Position numbers and translations under genes: made by a program. From an uncultured Sphingomonas sp. (lineage in GTDB: Bacteria > Pseudomonadota > Alphaproteobacteria > Sphingomonadales > Sphingomonadaceae): DNA of 45,772 bases. Below the pieces are notes generated by a model. That model saw only the letters and a program-made list of their open reading frames with translations, was not told the DNA's origin and did not search any database. Shown piece after piece: positions 1,426 to 41,107 of this stretch; within the stretch, counting starts at the first letter, position 1, and the number at the start of each line of letters is the position of its first letter. The stretch covers positions 1-45,772 of the forward strand of contig NZ_CADCWA010000160.1 in NCBI RefSeq assembly GCF_902806285.1, given 5' to 3'.

Positions 1426-1567
1426 CCTCCCTGCCGACATAGTCGGTGGGGAGGGGGACCGCTCGCCGAAGGCGAGTGGTGGAGGGGCCAACGCCGCTCC
1501 GCCTGGCCCCTCCGTCATCCGCTCCGCGGATGCCACCTCCCCATCCTCGCTGGGCGAGGACAGGCAG
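1426..1567. repeat. Multi-hairpin palindromic repeat (large variant) between convergent genes
   Basis: The 140-bp gap between two convergent stop codons is filled by nested inverted repeats. The outer arms are CCTCCCTGCC... and ...GGGCGAGGACAGGCAGG. The inner hairpins are CGCTCGCCGAAGGCGAGTG and ATCCGCTCCGCGGAT. The central arms are GGAGGGGCC and GGCCCCTCC. The pattern GGTGG-hairpin-GGAGGGG ... CCCCTCC-hairpin-CCACCTCCCC resembles the copies at 14204, 26502 and 41011, with different hairpin tips. It probably serves as a bidirectional terminator. No transposase is present. Confidence 0.7.
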
Positions 1568-1570
1568 GTT

Positions 1571-7283: not shown

Positions 7284-7706
7284 TCCGCCTCCCATCCCCG
7301 TTTCCCCCGGGCAAAGCCAAGTTCGACCGACGTAAAAGGCAGCTCGCATATGCGACAAGGGAGGGTGTAGGACAGCATCACTTAGGGGAAAACGATTGCT
7401 CAGCGTCTTTCCTGATCACTCATGATGAGGAAGCTTGATCTCCGGACCGAACGTACTGCCGAGCCGACCTGCTGGCATGCTTCAAGGTAAGCGGAAAGTT
7501 TCCCGCGATGAGCATTGTGCGCTGGCTGTTGCGTTGAACCTTCTTGGCCGCTAGGAAACAGTCACTCGCAAGGATCCGGTGCAATTCCGGGTGGCTATTC
7601 CGGCCGCTGATCCGCCGGACAACGTTTCGCGCTTCCGATCACAAGTTGATCCTACGTATCGCACGGTTGGTGCGTCGTTGCGCGAGTGTTGCGGGCCTCC
7701 GATGCG
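7284..7706. other. 423-bp non-coding stretch, lower GC
   Basis: No credible gene on either strand. Base composition is visibly less GC-rich than the flanking 4-7 kb region, like the glycosyltransferase pair that follows. It should hold the promoter of the glycosyltransferase pair; TTGCGT with TAGGAA 17 nt later (around 7530) is a weak candidate. Nothing else could be assigned. Confidence 0.5.
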
Positions 7707-13291: not shown

Positions 13292-13421
13292 ATGGGTTCC
13301 TTCACCCGGCGGGCGGATCCCGGCGGGGCGGCTTGGGCAGACAAACCGGTCTGCGAGCGGGGTGGGGCCTCTTGTGCCCCAAGGCCGGCCGCCGAATTGC
13401 GGTAAGGCCCCGTGAACGATG

Positions 13422-13474
13422 TGCTCCGGCGAAGGCAGGAGCCCAGTACTGGACCCCTGCCTTCGCAGGGGTAC
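13422..13474. repeat. REP-like palindromic repeat in the rpsO-pnp gap
   Basis: CTCCGGCGAAGGCAGGAG and CCCCTGCCTTCGCAGGGG are each hairpins and are also mutual inverted repeats around CCCAGTACTGGA. The rpsO-pnp gap is where E. coli carries its RNase III-cleaved regulatory hairpin; here a genomic repeat occupies the position. A regulatory role is not shown. Confidence 0.75.
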
Positions 13475-13507
13475 ATGAAGCAAGGGCGCCGCGAAGGGCG
13501 CTCCAAC

Positions 13508-13798: not shown

Positions 13799-14779
13799 CT
13801 ACAGGTTGAACCCGCGGACGACCTGGAGGACGTCGCCGGAGACCTCGACCAGCGCCACCGGACGATTGTCCTCGGTAGCCAGATAGAGACCCGGTTGCAC
13901 GGGCGGTCCCGGGAGCTTCTGTCCATGGCGGAGCAGCTGGGCGTCCAGGGGAGAGACGGGGAGGGCCGGGATGTCGTCCAGCCCCGCCGCGAGCGGCAGT
14001 ACCGCCCCGTCAAGCCGCCGCGCCTTAGCGGTTTCTTCCAGAAAGTCCAGCGGAATAGCCTGGTCGAGCGTGAACGGCCCGGCCTTCGTCCGGCGAAGCA
14101 TGGTGACGTGCCCGACCGTGCCGAGCGCTTGCGCGATGTCGCGCGCCAAGGAGCGGACGTAGGTGCCCTTGGAAACGGTGGCGGCAAGGGTAAGCTCCTC
14201 AAGCTCCTCCCCCTTGGGGGAGGTGGCGCGAAGCGCCAGAGGGGTGACTGACCCCTCTGTCGTGCTTCGCCCGACATCTCCCCCAAGGGGGAGAAGCCGG
14301 CTGACCGTCACTCGCCTTGCCTTCAGCGTCACTTCTTCACCGGCCCGCGCCAGGTCGTAGGCCCGCCGGCCATCCACCTTCAGCGCCGAAAACGCCGGGG
14401 GAACCTGCGCGATCTCGCCGGTAAAGCGGGGCAGCACAGCTTGGACCTGGGCAAGCGTGGGACGAATGGCGCTCCTCGCCACGACCTCACCTTCGGCATC
14501 CAGCGTACTCGTCTCCTCGCCGAACCGGACCGTGAACTCATATGCCTTGCTCGCCTCCAGCATGCGCCCGCACAGCTTGGTCGCCTCCCCCAGCGCAACC
14601 GGCAGCACGCCGCTGGCCAGCGGGTCGAGGGTACCGCCATGACCGACCCGCAGCTTGGGATAGCCGCCGACGCGCAACGCTCGTTTGACGGCCGTCACAC
14701 AGCCGGTCGAACTGGCTCCCACCGGCTTGTCGATGACCAGCCAGCCGTGAAGGTGGACGTTGTGCAAGGGGGTCGGCAT
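13799..14779 (-). CDS. truB: tRNA pseudouridine(55) synthase TruB with an in-frame repeat insertion
   Basis: 326-aa enzyme that isomerises U55 of the tRNA T-loop. The N-terminal GWLVIDKPVGASS and the catalytic motif GHGGTLDPLASGVLP, with Asp52 as the nucleophile, are intact. TVSKGTYVRSLARDIAQ and the C-terminal PUA-like part follow. Between strands ending TVSRLL and LEELTL there is an extra segment (about residues 162-192, TTEGSVTPLALRATSPKGEE in part). It corresponds exactly to a palindromic repeat at 14204-14294 that also exists in intergenic copies. Other TruB proteins have only a short loop here. The reading frame stays open, so the protein is probably made with a surface extension. Stop is 21 nt upstream of rpsO. 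Confidence 0.95.
   Translation of the reverse strand: MPTPLHNVHLHGWLVIDKPVGASSTGCVTAVKRALRVGGYPKLRVGHGGTLDPLASGVLPVALGEATKLCGRMLEASKAYEFTVRFGEETSTLDAEGEVVARSAIRPTLAQVQAVLPRFTGEIAQVPPAFSALKVDGRRAYDLARAGEEVTLKARRVTVSRLLPLGGDVGRSTTEGSVTPLALRATSPKGEELEELTLAATVSKGTYVRSLARDIAQALGTVGHVTMLRRTKAGPFTLDQAIPLDFLEETAKARRLDGAVLPLAAGLDDIPALPVSPLDAQLLRHGQKLPGPPVQPGLYLATEDNRPVALVEVSGDVLQVVRGFNL
14204..14294. repeat. Palindromic repeat inserted in frame inside truB
   Basis: CTCCCCCTTGGGGGAG-like outer hairpins at both ends (CTCCCCCTTGGGGGAGG and CTCCCCCAAGGGGGAG) enclose inner hairpins (GGCGCGAAGCGCC; CGTGCTTCGCCCG, degraded) and the central arms AGAGGGGT/ACCCCTCT. The layout and most bases match the intergenic copies at 26502 and 41011. 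About 30 codons are added to truB without breaking the frame. Confidence 0.92.
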
Positions 14780-23660: not shown

Positions 23661-23742
23661 AGTACCCCGGCGAAAGCCGGGGCCCAGCCGCCGCTTCGAC
23701 GCGCTAGCTTGAGGACTGGACCCCGGCGTTCGCCGGGGTACT
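23661..23742. repeat. REP-like palindromic repeat overlapping the ICMT-like gene end
   Basis: AGTACCCCGGCGAAAGCCGG (then GGCCCAG) at 23661 is mirrored by CCGGCGTTCGCCGGGGTACT ending at 23742. Each arm is also a hairpin. The last 12 codons and the stop of the ICMT-like gene lie inside the right half. Confidence 0.9.
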
Positions 23743-25325: not shown

Positions 25326-26501
25326 ATGCGTACGGTTCGATTGCAAGCTGCAACTCTTGCGCTGCTGATTGGTGCCTGCTCCGCCTCCTCGTCCGCGGCC
25401 GACGAGCAGGCCGCACCGGCGCCGCAAAGCGACAACGCCACCGCCCAGACCACGGGTGGGAGCGCTCAGCAGACCGCCGGACGCCCGTTCAGCAGCGAAT
25501 CGGTGGCGAGCTTCTCGACCCCCTGGGCGATGGCCTTTCTCCCCGGCAGCGGCGTGGCCATGACCAACCGGGCCCTGGTCTCGGAGAAGGAAGGCCTGCT
25601 CTGGCTGGTGGACGTCGCCAGCGGGCAGAAGCAGCCGGTGTCCGGCTTGCCGGAGAACATCAAGGTCGCGGGGCAGGGCGGCCTCGGCGACGTGGTCGTG
25701 CATCCCGACTTCGCGGGCAACCAGCGCGTCTACCTGACCTTCGTCGAGCCGGGTCCGAACGGCACCAGCGGGGCCGCGGTCGGCTACGGCACGCTGGAGA
25801 TGGCGCGGAACGGATCCCGGCTGAACGGCTTCAAGGTCATCTGGCGGCAAACGCCCAAGGTCACCGGCAACGGCCACTTCTCGCACCGCATCGCCTTTGC
25901 GCCGGACGGGAGCATGTTCGTGTCGTCCGGGGACCGGGAGAAGATGGAGCCGGCCCAGGACCGGAACGTCGACCTCGGCAAGATCATTCACCTGGATGCG
26001 GAAGGCCAGCGCATCGGCCGGCGCTTCCATACCATGGGGCACCGCAACGTGCTCGGCCTGGCCTTTGCGCCCGATGGGCGGCTGTGGGCCGGCGAGATGG
26101 GCCCGAAGGGTGGCGACGAGGTGAACCTGATCGAGCAGGGCAAGAACTACGGCTGGCCGCAGGCATCCTACGGCAGCCACTATGAAGGACGGCCGATCCC
26201 CGACGACCACCGGGCGCGCGGTTTCGAGGAGCCCAAGGTGTGGTGGAACCCCGCCATCTCGCCGGGCGGCCTGATCGTCTACAACGGCGACCTGTTCCCG
26301 CAGTGGAAAGGCGACATCCTGATGGGAGCGCTGTCGGGCGAAGCGCTGATCCGGGTCGATGTGAACGGCGCAGTCGCGCGCAAGGGCAACCAGTGGCCGA
26401 TGAACGCCCGCATCCGCGAGGTCGAGCAAGGCCCGCGCGGCGAGGTGTACCTGCTGGAGGACGCCGGGCGGCTGTTGAGGCTCGAGCCGGCGCGAACCTA
26501 G
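25326..26501 (+). CDS. PQQ-dependent sugar dehydrogenase family lipoprotein (YliI/Asd type)
   Basis: 391-aa six-bladed beta-propeller of the glucose/sorbosone dehydrogenase family, oxidising aldoses or related sugars with PQQ in the periplasm. The N-terminus MRTVRLQAATLALLIGACSA has a lipobox (LIGAC), so it is a lipoprotein. Family motifs are FSTPWAMAFLPGSG, GQGGLGDVVVHPDF, FVSSGDREKMEPAQ, GHRNVLGLAFAPDGRLWAGE with MGPKGGDEVNLIEQGKNYGW (the catalytic and PQQ-site region), and NPAISPGGLIVYNGDLF. No PQQ synthesis gene is in the window. GTAAGGGAGAGG precedes the ATG. It converges on trmB with a palindromic repeat in the gap. Confidence 0.92.
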   Translation: MRTVRLQAATLALLIGACSASSSAADEQAAPAPQSDNATAQTTGGSAQQTAGRPFSSESVASFSTPWAMAFLPGSGVAMTNRALVSEKEGLLWLVDVASGQKQPVSGLPENIKVAGQGGLGDVVVHPDFAGNQRVYLTFVEPGPNGTSGAAVGYGTLEMARNGSRLNGFKVIWRQTPKVTGNGHFSHRIAFAPDGSMFVSSGDREKMEPAQDRNVDLGKIIHLDAEGQRIGRRFHTMGHRNVLGLAFAPDGRLWAGEMGPKGGDEVNLIEQGKNYGWPQASYGSHYEGRPIPDDHRARGFEEPKVWWNPAISPGGLIVYNGDLFPQWKGDILMGALSGEALIRVDVNGAVARKGNQWPMNARIREVEQGPRGEVYLLEDAGRLLRLEPART

Positions 26502-26597
26502 CTACTCCCCCTGGGGGAGAGGCGCGAAGCGCCGGAGGGGTAAGTAAATGACCCCTCTGTCAGCTGCGCTGACATCTCCCCCAAAGGGGGAGATGCT
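26502..26597. repeat. Palindromic repeat between convergent genes (same family as the truB insert)
   Basis: CTACTCCCCCTGGGGGAGAG, GGCGCGAAGCGCCGGAGGGG, then ACCCCTCTGTCAGCTGCGCTGAC, then ATCTCCCCCAAAGGGGGAGA: outer and inner hairpins around a central inverted repeat. It fills the gap between the sugar dehydrogenase stop and the trmB stop and ends within the trmB stop codon. The minus-strand translation LTEGSFTYPSGASRLSPRGS parallels the truB insert. Confidence 0.92.
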
Positions 26598-27350: not shown

Positions 27351-27893
27351 ATGTACGGCAACAACCCTCGCAGCACCGCACAGATCGGCGGGCACCCGCT
27401 GCATCCCATGCTGATCCCGATCCCGATCACCAGCTTCCTGTTCGCCTTCGGCACCGATCTGGCCCACGCGGCGACCGGCGACCGGCGCTGGGGCGAGGCG
27501 ACCAAGTGGCTGCTGGGCGCCGGGCTGGTCGGGGCGTTGGGCGCGGCGGCGACGGGGATGACCGACTATCTCGGCGACGAGCGGGTGAAGAAGCTGCCGT
27601 CCGCCAACCAGCACATGATCGCCAACCTCGCGCTGGTCGGGGTGCAGACCGCCAATCTCGGGCTGCGGCTGACCAACCGGCAGGAAGAGGTGCCGGCAGG
27701 CGGGCCGTGGCTGTCCGGGCTGGCGGCGGCGATCGTCGGCTACTCGGGCTGGCTCGGCGGCGAGCTGACCTACCGCCATCGGGTCGCAGTGCAGGAAACC
27801 CGCGACGAATATTCCGGCTACGACGACGGCCATGCCGAGGGCGGCCTGGGCGTCCCCCGCGGCGAAGTGCTAAAGGAGAAGATGGCGGAGTAA
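27351..27893 (+). CDS. DUF2231 domain-containing membrane protein
   Basis: 180-aa protein with four hydrophobic segments (IPITSFLFAFGTDLAH; WLLGAGLVGALGAAATG; IANLALVGVQTANLGL; GLAAAIVGYSGWLGGEL), matching DUF2231. The N-terminal GGHPLHPMLIPIPITSF is the family hallmark (HPLHP). The C-terminal tail is charged and Gly-rich (YSGYDDGHAEGGLGVPRGEV). Function unknown; relatives are predicted inner-membrane proteins, sometimes with haem-associated domains. ATG at 27351 has AGGAG 8 nt upstream. It is divergent from trmB (56-bp gap) and converges on metK across a REP repeat. Confidence 0.88.
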   Translation: MYGNNPRSTAQIGGHPLHPMLIPIPITSFLFAFGTDLAHAATGDRRWGEATKWLLGAGLVGALGAAATGMTDYLGDERVKKLPSANQHMIANLALVGVQTANLGLRLTNRQEEVPAGGPWLSGLAAAIVGYSGWLGGELTYRHRVAVQETRDEYSGYDDGHAEGGLGVPRGEVLKEKMAE

Positions 27894-27894
27894 G

Positions 27895-27970
27895 CGTCAT
27901 CCCGGCGAAGGCCGGGATCCCAGCGATAGCGCGCGGTTGACCTGAGATCCCGGCCTGCGCCGGGATGACG
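27895..27970. repeat. REP-like palindromic repeat between DUF2231 gene and metK
   Basis: CGTCATCCCGGCGAAGGCCG (then GGATCCCAG) is mirrored by GATCCCGGCCTGCGCCGGGA (then TGACG). It fills the convergent gap and ends 1 bp before the metK stop codon. Each arm is itself a hairpin, so it could stop transcription from both sides. Confidence 0.92.
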
Positions 27971-27971
27971 G

Positions 27972-29186
27972 TCAGACCTGGAGCGCCGCCCTCAGCTCCT
28001 CCGCAAGGTCGGTCCGCTCCCACGGGAACAGGTTGCCGTCCGCCTTGCGCCCGAAGTGACCGTAGGCGGCGGTGCGCGCGTAGATCGGCTTGTTGAGGCG
28101 GAGGTGCGTGCGGATGCCGCGCGGGGTGAGGCCGCCCAGCTTGTCGATCCGCTTGATCGCGGCCTCCAGCCGGTCGTCGCCCACCGTCCCGGTCCCGTGC
28201 GTGTCGATGTACAGCGACAGCGGCTCCGACACGCCAATCGCGTAGGCTAGCTGTATGGTGCAGCGCCGCGCGAGGCCGGCCGCGACGATGTTCTTGGCGA
28301 GGTAGCGCGCGGCATAGGCCGCCGAGCGGTCGACCTTGGTCGGGTCCTTGCCGCTGAACGCGCCGCCGCCGTGCGGGGCTGCGCCGCCATAGGTGTCGAC
28401 GATGATCTTGCGCCCGGTCAGGCCGGCGTCCCCGTCGGGCCCACCGATCACGAACGAGCCGGTCGGATTGATGTGGTAGATCGTTTCCCCGTTCAGCAGT
28501 CCGTCCGGAAGCACCTCCCCCACCACTCGCTTCACATAGTCGTGCAGTTCGGTCTCGCGCTCGCCCTCGTCATATCCTTCGACATGTTGGGTCGAGACCA
28601 CCACCGCCGTCGCGCGCACCGGCTGGCCGCTCTCGAAGCGCAGGGTCACCTGGCTCTTGGCGTCGGGCTGGAGGAAGGGCGCCGCGCCCGAGTGGCGGTC
28701 GGCGGCCATGCGCTCCAGGATCTTGTGGCTGTAGTCGAGCGTCGCCGGCATCAGGTCCGGGGTCTCGTCGCAGGCGAAGCCGAACATGATGCCCTGGTCG
28801 CCCGCGCCCTCGTCCTTGTTGCCGCTGGCATCCACGCCTTGCGCGATGTGCTCCGACTGGGGGTGGAGGTTGTTCTCGAACGCCAGATACTGCCAGTGGA
28901 AGCCTTCCTGCTCGTAGCCGATGCGGCGGACCGTTTCGCGCACCACCTGCTCGATCTCTTGCGGAACGCCCGGCGCCCAATTGCCTTGGGTGTCCATGAT
29001 GCCCTGACCGCGGATCTCGCCCGCGAGCACCACCAGGTTGGTCGTGACCAAGGTCTCGCACGCGACCCGCGCCTCGGGGTCCTTGGCGAGGAACAGGTCG
29101 ACCACCGCGTCGCTGATCTGGTCGGCGACCTTGTCGGGATGGCCTTCGGACACGGATTCGGAAGTGAACAGGTAGGACTGGCGCAT
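27972..29186 (-). CDS. metK: S-adenosylmethionine synthetase
   Basis: 404-aa enzyme making SAM from methionine and ATP. It has [20 protein letters not shown] at the N-terminus, the signature [20 protein letters not shown] (ATP and methionine site), and the Gly-rich P-loop-like [19 protein letters not shown]. The length is usual for the alphaproteobacterial form. The ATG at 29186 follows AGAGGG. The 48-nt leader before lnt's end contains a GCCGCCGCGGCGGC self-complementary sequence and a tandem CCTTATAT repeat. SAM made here would serve the several methyltransferases in the window (TrmB, MiaB, ICMT-like). Confidence 0.98.
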
Positions 29187-40994: not shown

Positions 40995-41010
40995 GTGTTC
41001 TCACTCCCAA

Positions 41011-41105
41011 GCTACTCCCCCTTGGGGGAGATGTCAGCGAAGCTGACAGAGGGGTCAGTCAGCACCCCTCCGGCGCTTCGCGCCTCTCCCCCAAGGGGGA
41101 GTAGC
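41011..41105. repeat. Palindromic repeat between mmsB and enoyl-CoA hydratase (truB-insert family)
   Basis: GCTACTCCCCCTTGGGGGAG at the left end is the exact reverse complement of the right end CTCCCCCAAGGGGGAGTAGC. Inside are GATGTCAGCGAAGCTGACAG, AGGGGT/ACCCCTCC and GGCGCTTCGCGCC. It is the best preserved copy, in the opposite orientation to the copy at 26502. Confidence 0.95.
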
Positions 41106-41107
41106 AA

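Follow-up and report, generated by a model that had tools for sequence, protein, structure and literature searches.

The repeats dispersed through the window, by which we mean the whole 45,772-nt stretch of DNA analyzed here (contig 160 of a 2.52-Mb draft genome of a member of the Sphingomonadaceae, 87% complete), are likely to be small, non-autonomous copies within a mobile-element family that has inverted triplex ends and whose autonomous form carries a DUF559 gene. This interpretation is built on the layout of the repeats, covariation within their hairpins, a mirror relationship between stem and third strand, the location of DUF559 genes between the two halves, the grouping of repeat classes by DUF559 clade, a correlation in copy number, and the absence of target-site duplication.

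The original prediction of a repeat family in the window is borne out by three copies (Table 1), each consisting of an outer hairpin, an inner hairpin, GAGGGGT/ACCCCTC arms, a second inner hairpin and a second outer hairpin, as had been claimed. When folded as single strands, the elements yield z-scores of -8.9 to -12.3, and none of 200 shuffled sequences folds as well. A fourth region, proposed as a larger relative at 1426-1567, does have the same layout, in that a GGGACC..GGT-GGAGGGG half and a TGGC..GAC-GGAGGGG half can be read from its sequence, with a further hairpin inside the loop of each outer hairpin, but the kinship is distant, as it scores no more than 18.6 bits with the covariance model of the family. 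The hairpin tips that appeared to have been swapped between copies mostly reflect orientation: element 3 is approximately the reverse complement of element 2 (inverted repeats I2, 95%, and I3, 97%), and each element combines one type A half with one type B half. Element 2 lies between two convergent genes, its own TAGC ends constituting both stop codons, whereas element 3 lies between two minus-strand genes in tandem and element 1 is inside truB, such that a location between convergent stops, which had been ascribed to several copies, holds for two of the four, element 2 and the diverged relative. The window also contains a second inverted-pair repeat family, the TCATTCCCGCGAAAGCGGGAACCCAG type, which has no relation to the triplex elements, at 2598-2675, 13419-13476, 23661-23742 and 27864-28001, and a candidate sul1 RNA riboswitch (RF03058, 73 bits) at 7569-7624.

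Table 1. Locations of the repeats, their halves and the associated genes (window positions unless a contig is named)
Feature	Location	Strand	Details
truB (tRNA pseudouridine-55 synthase)	13799..14779	-	contains element 1, no stop codon
Element 1	14202..14298	+	type B half 14202-14245; type A half 14251-14298 (reverse strand)
Element 2	26500..26597	+	type B half 26500-26541; type A half 26551-26597 (reverse strand)
Element 3	41010..41106	-	type A half 41010-41055; type B half 41064-41106
Diverged larger relative	1427..1568		strand unassigned; between convergent genes
DUF559 gene 1	C50:21629-21940		inside ~450-bp element; found with Pfam
Left half-unit, family of the window	C50:21553-21600	+	48 bits
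Right half-unit, diverged, inverted	C50:21953-22006	-	25 bits
DUF559 gene 2	C145:1244-1555		flanks of another triplex class (CCCTCTCC / GGGTGAGG)

The genome-wide covariance-model search that the original prediction had called for recovers 86 half-units, corresponding to approximately 40 elements, among which both halves are readable in 35 and 29 could be aligned in full. These 29 share a common plan, AGCT-n-CTCCCCC-TT-GGGGGAG-inner hairpin-GAGGGGT, followed by a variable center of 5-24 nt and then by the same half-unit in inverted orientation. Perfect hairpins of the form CTCCCCC-N0-4-GGGGGAG occur 50 times in the genome, versus 0 for a reversed control pattern. The expectation of hundreds of copies proved too high for this genome, having been extrapolated from a locally rich window (three elements versus approximately 0.7 expected from the genome-wide density), although some members of the family do have 150-260 half-units. 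Halves fall into type A, with a GTC..GAC inner hairpin, and type B, for the most part with GGC... An A half is joined to a B half in 29 of the 35 elements (17.5 expected, p = 5e-5), and two identical inner hairpins are found in none of the 35, a plausible reason being the instability expected of a perfect 90-bp palindrome. An Rfam search with the repeat returned no family at the gathering threshold, and no relevant paper was found when open-access full text was searched for the repeat as a sequence string.

Among 58 half-units, the inner hairpin exhibits 112 double-sided changes versus 41 expected in shuffles, and 91.7% of its cells are paired, versus 79.9% in shuffles and 44-61% in slid versions. 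These compensatory changes, together with folding beyond chance, support the proposed selection for single-strand structure, and the covariation of arms on which that proposal depended is found for the inner arms. The GAGGGG arm has a different relationship, since it mirrors GGGGAG instead of complementing the stem of the half to which it belongs. This GGGGAG/GAGGGG mirror is present in nearly all aligned halves, and in the repeats of this genome the third strand agrees with the stem at 6 of 7 positions. The intervening second loop, 13-24 nt in length, carries its own covarying hairpin. A stem with a mirror arm characterizes the purine-motif intrastrand DNA triplex, a fold that is predicted here from sequence.

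The mirror relationship extends to other DUF559 loci, whose stems vary widely (CCCTCTCCC, CCCCTCCCG, CCTTCCCCC, CTCTCCCCC, CCTCCCC and others). The third strand mirrors the stem in 69 of 92 DUF559 flanks with an asymmetric purine hairpin, and a direct repeat alone is seen in one. Because the rule is kept across differing stems, it provides covariation evidence for a triplex constraint beyond a single family. Positions 6, 23 and 46 also covary as a possible triplex triad (T-A.A, C-G.G, G-C.T), a pattern that is partly confounded with subfamily, and we therefore prefer the cross-locus mirror test as evidence. The sole motif of this type for which triplex formation has been observed experimentally is TM_ECO of E. 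coli, CCCTCGCCCC-TTT-GGGGAGAGGG-TTA-GGGTGAGGGG (PMC4666352). The published search for such motifs (ITxF) considered loops of 1-6 nt (PMC4666352), and our second loop exceeds this range, which probably explains why the long-loop kind is missing from the published list.

In several genomes, inverted half-units are situated approximately 350 bp apart instead of adjacent to each other, with a DUF559 protein encoded in between. All 11 of the inward-facing pairs that we noticed at spacings of approximately 340-430 bp have a DUF559 gene inside. A Pfam search of the genus revealed two DUF559 genes in the genome studied here. The first begins a few bases past the left third strand of its element and ends at a stop codon within the right half. 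The description of the repeats as transposase-less thus applies to the small copies, but not to this 450-bp version. The flanks of the second gene belong to another triplex class, indicating that two cognate pairs are possible in one genome.

The association was quantified with a strict motif rule, which specifies a perfect stem of at least 7 and a perfect mirror third strand, with T allowed opposite A or C; most halves of this genome's own family are overlooked by this finder because their last third-strand base is a T opposite G. In a genus-centered set of 34 loci, five of which were picked via the motif and one of which was the own-genome locus with known half-units, the rest being chosen by Pfam alone, an inward-facing perfect motif is present in 48 of 67 DUF559 flanks. 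The corresponding controls gave 5/67 on the wrong strand, 5/502 in windows 0.5-1.5 kb away, and 0/1340 in shuffles. In an independent sample of the phylum, the motif was found in 28 of 58 flanks and at 19 of 29 loci, versus 5 of 580 distal windows. Both sets include DUF559 genes with no detectable motif. Plasmid pPg_02 of Pseudanabaena has a DUF559 domain within an annotated CDS of 4.9 kb, bounded on each side by a perfect 12-nt triplex motif, an arrangement that an in-frame insertion of the element would produce. On a plasmid of Sphingomonas parapaucimobilis, a DUF559 element separates pntAA from pntAB in the transhydrogenase operon.

An AlphaFold model of the DUF559 protein (pLDDT 90) matches the DUF559 structure 3hrl (TM 0.76) and I-Bth0305I, the endonuclease of a mobile intron (3r3p; TM 0.71), with weaker resemblance to Vsr (0.54-0.58), and profile searches likewise recover 3hrl (1e-35) and I-Bth0305I (8e-6). 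Among 64 sequences, residues D42, E53 and D55 of an EDxHD-type active site are invariant, and H59 is conserved in at least 90%. The DUF559 protein is predicted to be a nuclease of approximately 120 residues with Vsr and the EDxHD homing endonucleases as relatives. We found no publication in open-access full text that links DUF559 to these repeats, and the DUF559 literature available in that form contains nothing on repeats.

On a DUF559 tree that is built on few columns and poorly resolved, repeat classes are clustered, requiring 32 changes versus 47.9 with shuffled labels (0/200 as low). Within the clade of the C50 protein (support 98/97), all 11 scored members have CCTCCCC long-loop repeats, four further members being unscored. 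Across 61 genomes of the genus, the number of half-units tracks the number of DUF559 genes (Spearman 0.67), and half-units are present in 21 of 28 genomes with DUF559 versus 8 of 33 without it (Fisher p = 1e-4), both comparisons being made with kinship ignored. The half-unit pattern is found in 29 of the 61 congeners, with a patchy distribution and absence from many species. In the order, 114 of 301 genomes have it, the maximum being 255 matches per genome, with reversed controls near zero. In one of the genomes surveyed (G120, C1:354400-356300), same-strand half-units recur at a spacing of ~276 bp, which points to a unit amplified in tandem.

The ycjD gene of E. coli conforms to this pattern. 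It is the one DUF559 gene of strain K-12, located between sapF and fabI, and is present in 3366 of 5426 E. coli genomes. As read by eye, a TM_ECO copy lies approximately 200 bp downstream of K-12 ycjD, and the gene of strain KE47 is adjoined by an inward-facing TM_ECO-like motif. In a joint query, with kinship ignored, the 3365 genomes that carry ycjD have a median of approximately 5 TM_ECO matches (sample of 44), whereas 849 of the 2061 genomes that lack it have no match and the sampled remainder have 1-4. Another operon fills the ycjD locus in both ycjD-lacking strains examined; owing to this replacement and to clonality, we regard the E. coli pattern as supporting rather than decisive. The TM_ECO pair between hrpB and mrcB is missing in other strains, where the junction is too diverged for a mechanism to be read. 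In strain 2010C_5028, compared with MG1655, this pair is reduced to one hairpin, as would follow from recombination of its arms, in agreement with the reported instability of TM motifs.

The main rival interpretation, which we consider unlikely but deserving of serious attention, holds that DUF559 is a passenger or a domesticated repair enzyme, that the hairpins attract insertions or act as terminators or operators, and that the repeats spread by replication slippage, by template switching or through another transposase. VsrA of Caulobacter, which has been credited with a mismatch-repair-like role, causes DNA damage upon loss of a cytosine methyltransferase (PMC12907096), indicating that DUF559 proteins can serve another role. 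Free-standing DUF559 genes with no recognizable repeats also exist, and triplex motifs have been tied to instability in the absence of any enzyme (PMC4666352). However, the motifs face inward on both sides of the gene and are matched to DUF559 clade, copy number tracks DUF559, and no other genes were found between such pairs. Clade matching and copy-number dependence, in particular, argue against a passenger role.

The original prediction drew a comparison with REP/RAYT systems. On that reading, half-units would represent REPs and doublets REPINs, moved by a Y1 (HUH) transposase acting on single-stranded DNA. The inverted palindromic doublet, the lack of target-site duplication and the lineage-specific expansion do conform to the pattern of REPIN populations (PMC3116915), and the broader idea that inverted half-units spread as a REPIN-like doublet lacking a transposase of its own is supported. 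The enzyme is a different matter: Y1_Tnp (PF01797) is absent from the own genome (87% complete) and present in 3 of 61 congeners, yet 29 of 61 have the half-unit pattern; no motif occurs near the three Y1_Tnp loci; and it is a DUF559 nuclease, not Y1, that is encoded between the halves. These observations rule against RAYT as the mobilizer, leaving this machinery very improbable.

Insertions within genes bear on whether the repeats move at all. Element 1 is in frame in truB, adding approximately 31 residues in a loop of TruB between the TruB_N and TruB_C_2 domains (Pfam); the closest named TruB is that of Sphingomonas hankyongi. Other in-frame copies interrupt murD, the linker of coaBC and a UvrD-family helicase, and the N-termini of sufD, an EamA transporter and a lipoprotein methyltransferase are probably encoded by copies as well. 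Across the genus, this TruB loop is an insertion hotspot: approximately 17 of 29 congeners examined (loci L082-L101) have in-frame inserts there, coming from three or more palindromic repeat families that have no relation to one another (CCTCCCC triplex elements, GTCACCCTGAACTTG..CAAGTTCAGCATGACG, and the CCCGCGAAAGCGGG type). Copies within genes are a minority, many others being found where genes end or where convergent genes meet. This placement, together with the strength of the hairpins, might suggest that the repeats are immobile terminators, regulatory hairpins or nucleoid-protein sites kept between genes by selection, but we give this very little weight, since a terminator would be harmful inside truB, murD, coaBC or the helicase gene, many congeners have no copies, and the distribution tracks DUF559, not gene identity.

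Flanking duplications, the search for which had also been proposed, were not found: outside the AGCT ends, 0 of 28 elements have a target-site duplication at any length of 2-10 bp, and 5-mer repeats within 12 bp number 3 versus 2.0 expected. A classical MITE of a DDE-type insertion sequence would account for the small size and inverted ends, and the AGCT conserved at both ends could be a fixed 4-bp duplicated target, but with no flanking direct repeat in 28 elements, no cognate insertion sequence seen and a full-length form that carries DUF559, such an origin is highly doubtful.

Counting against mobility, no clean empty site was found among TruB relatives, for the Sphingomonas plasmid or at the E. 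coli pair. The nearest TruB relatives are just ~65-75% identical, too distant to give a truB junction at base level, and no close empty plasmid was found for the pntAA-pntAB insertion.

That the triplex forms in the cell, that DUF559 cuts and that the elements transpose are steps that we infer from the observations above. Each of the two inverted ends comprises a pyrimidine/purine hairpin, a hairpin-bearing loop and a third strand mirroring the purine arm, and in the autonomous form a single gene, for the DUF559 nuclease of ~120 residues, lies between them. In the proposed mechanism, the folded hairpin or triplex would be recognized by the cognate DUF559 protein when the DNA is single-stranded, as during replication, repair or cruciform extrusion. 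A cut at or near the base of the hairpin or triplex would then help the entire doublet to be excised or copied and to insert at another site, with no target-site duplication. The 97-bp copies would be served in trans by DUF559, and insertions in genes would survive where the reading frame is kept, as in truB, murD, coaBC and the UvrD-family helicase. Exceptions to this model are the 8 DUF559-lacking genus genomes that have half-units and the ycjD-lacking lineages of E. coli that keep a few TM_ECO copies.

The balance of evidence leans somewhat toward a new class of bacterial mobile element in which a DUF559 gene within inverted triplex ends spawns gene-less doublets, widespread in Pseudomonadota and probably beyond, with ycjD and TM_ECO as a worn-down case; the reach beyond Pseudomonadota is represented by one cyanobacterial locus, that on pPg_02. 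Dispersed palindromic repeats of unknown source are common in bacteria, and RAYT accounts for only some of them. If our interpretation is correct, a second REPIN-like system, unrelated to RAYT, would derive from a nuclease tied to triplex-forming ends. Intramolecular DNA triplexes would thereby gain a natural role, a large family annotated just as DUF559 a function, and the TM_ECO repeats of E. coli an origin. As judged from open-access full text, the novelty lies in the putatively mobile system of nuclease plus triplex ends, not in the repeats alone.

The closest precedent for the repeats is TM_ECO of E. coli and other proteobacteria (Holder et al. 2015, PMC4666352), in which a pyrimidine/purine hairpin likewise precedes a purine third strand of mirror symmetry and which is dispersed, with some inverted pairs and strong variation from strain to strain. 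All five inverted TM_ECO pairs in E. coli join type A with type B (Holder et al., PMC4666352). The second loop of TM_ECO is 3 nt (PMC4666352), unlike the longer, hairpin-bearing loop described here, and whereas that study found no mobility gene, we find a DUF559 gene linked to the repeats, including ycjD in E. coli. In behavior, the elements resemble REPIN/RAYT systems (Bertels and Rainey 2011, PMC3116915), in which an inverted palindromic doublet spreads by means of an enzyme encoded elsewhere and enzyme clade is matched to repeat class. They differ in having a PD-(D/E)XK/EDxHD-type nuclease in place of a Y1 HUH transposase and a triplex motif as the repeat, and in that the enzyme gene can lie between the halves, creating an apparently autonomous form. 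The EDxHD homing endonuclease I-Bth0305I (PMC3943268; 3r3p) shares fold and sequence family with DUF559 and is the product of a nuclease gene that serves its own mobility, as DUF559 may also do; it has no counterpart, however, to a repeat-bounded gene with many gene-less satellites and no intron or intein, nor to a 120-residue protein with no added DNA-binding domain. Finally, like Rickettsia palindromic elements (PMC10969869), which are palindromes of ~100-150 bp in frame in alphaproteobacterial housekeeping genes, the repeats enter essential genes in frame, and do so outside Rickettsia. The likeness proposed here is one of behavior rather than of sequence kinship, and the present elements are distinguished by the minority of copies residing in genes and by the identification of a linked nuclease gene.
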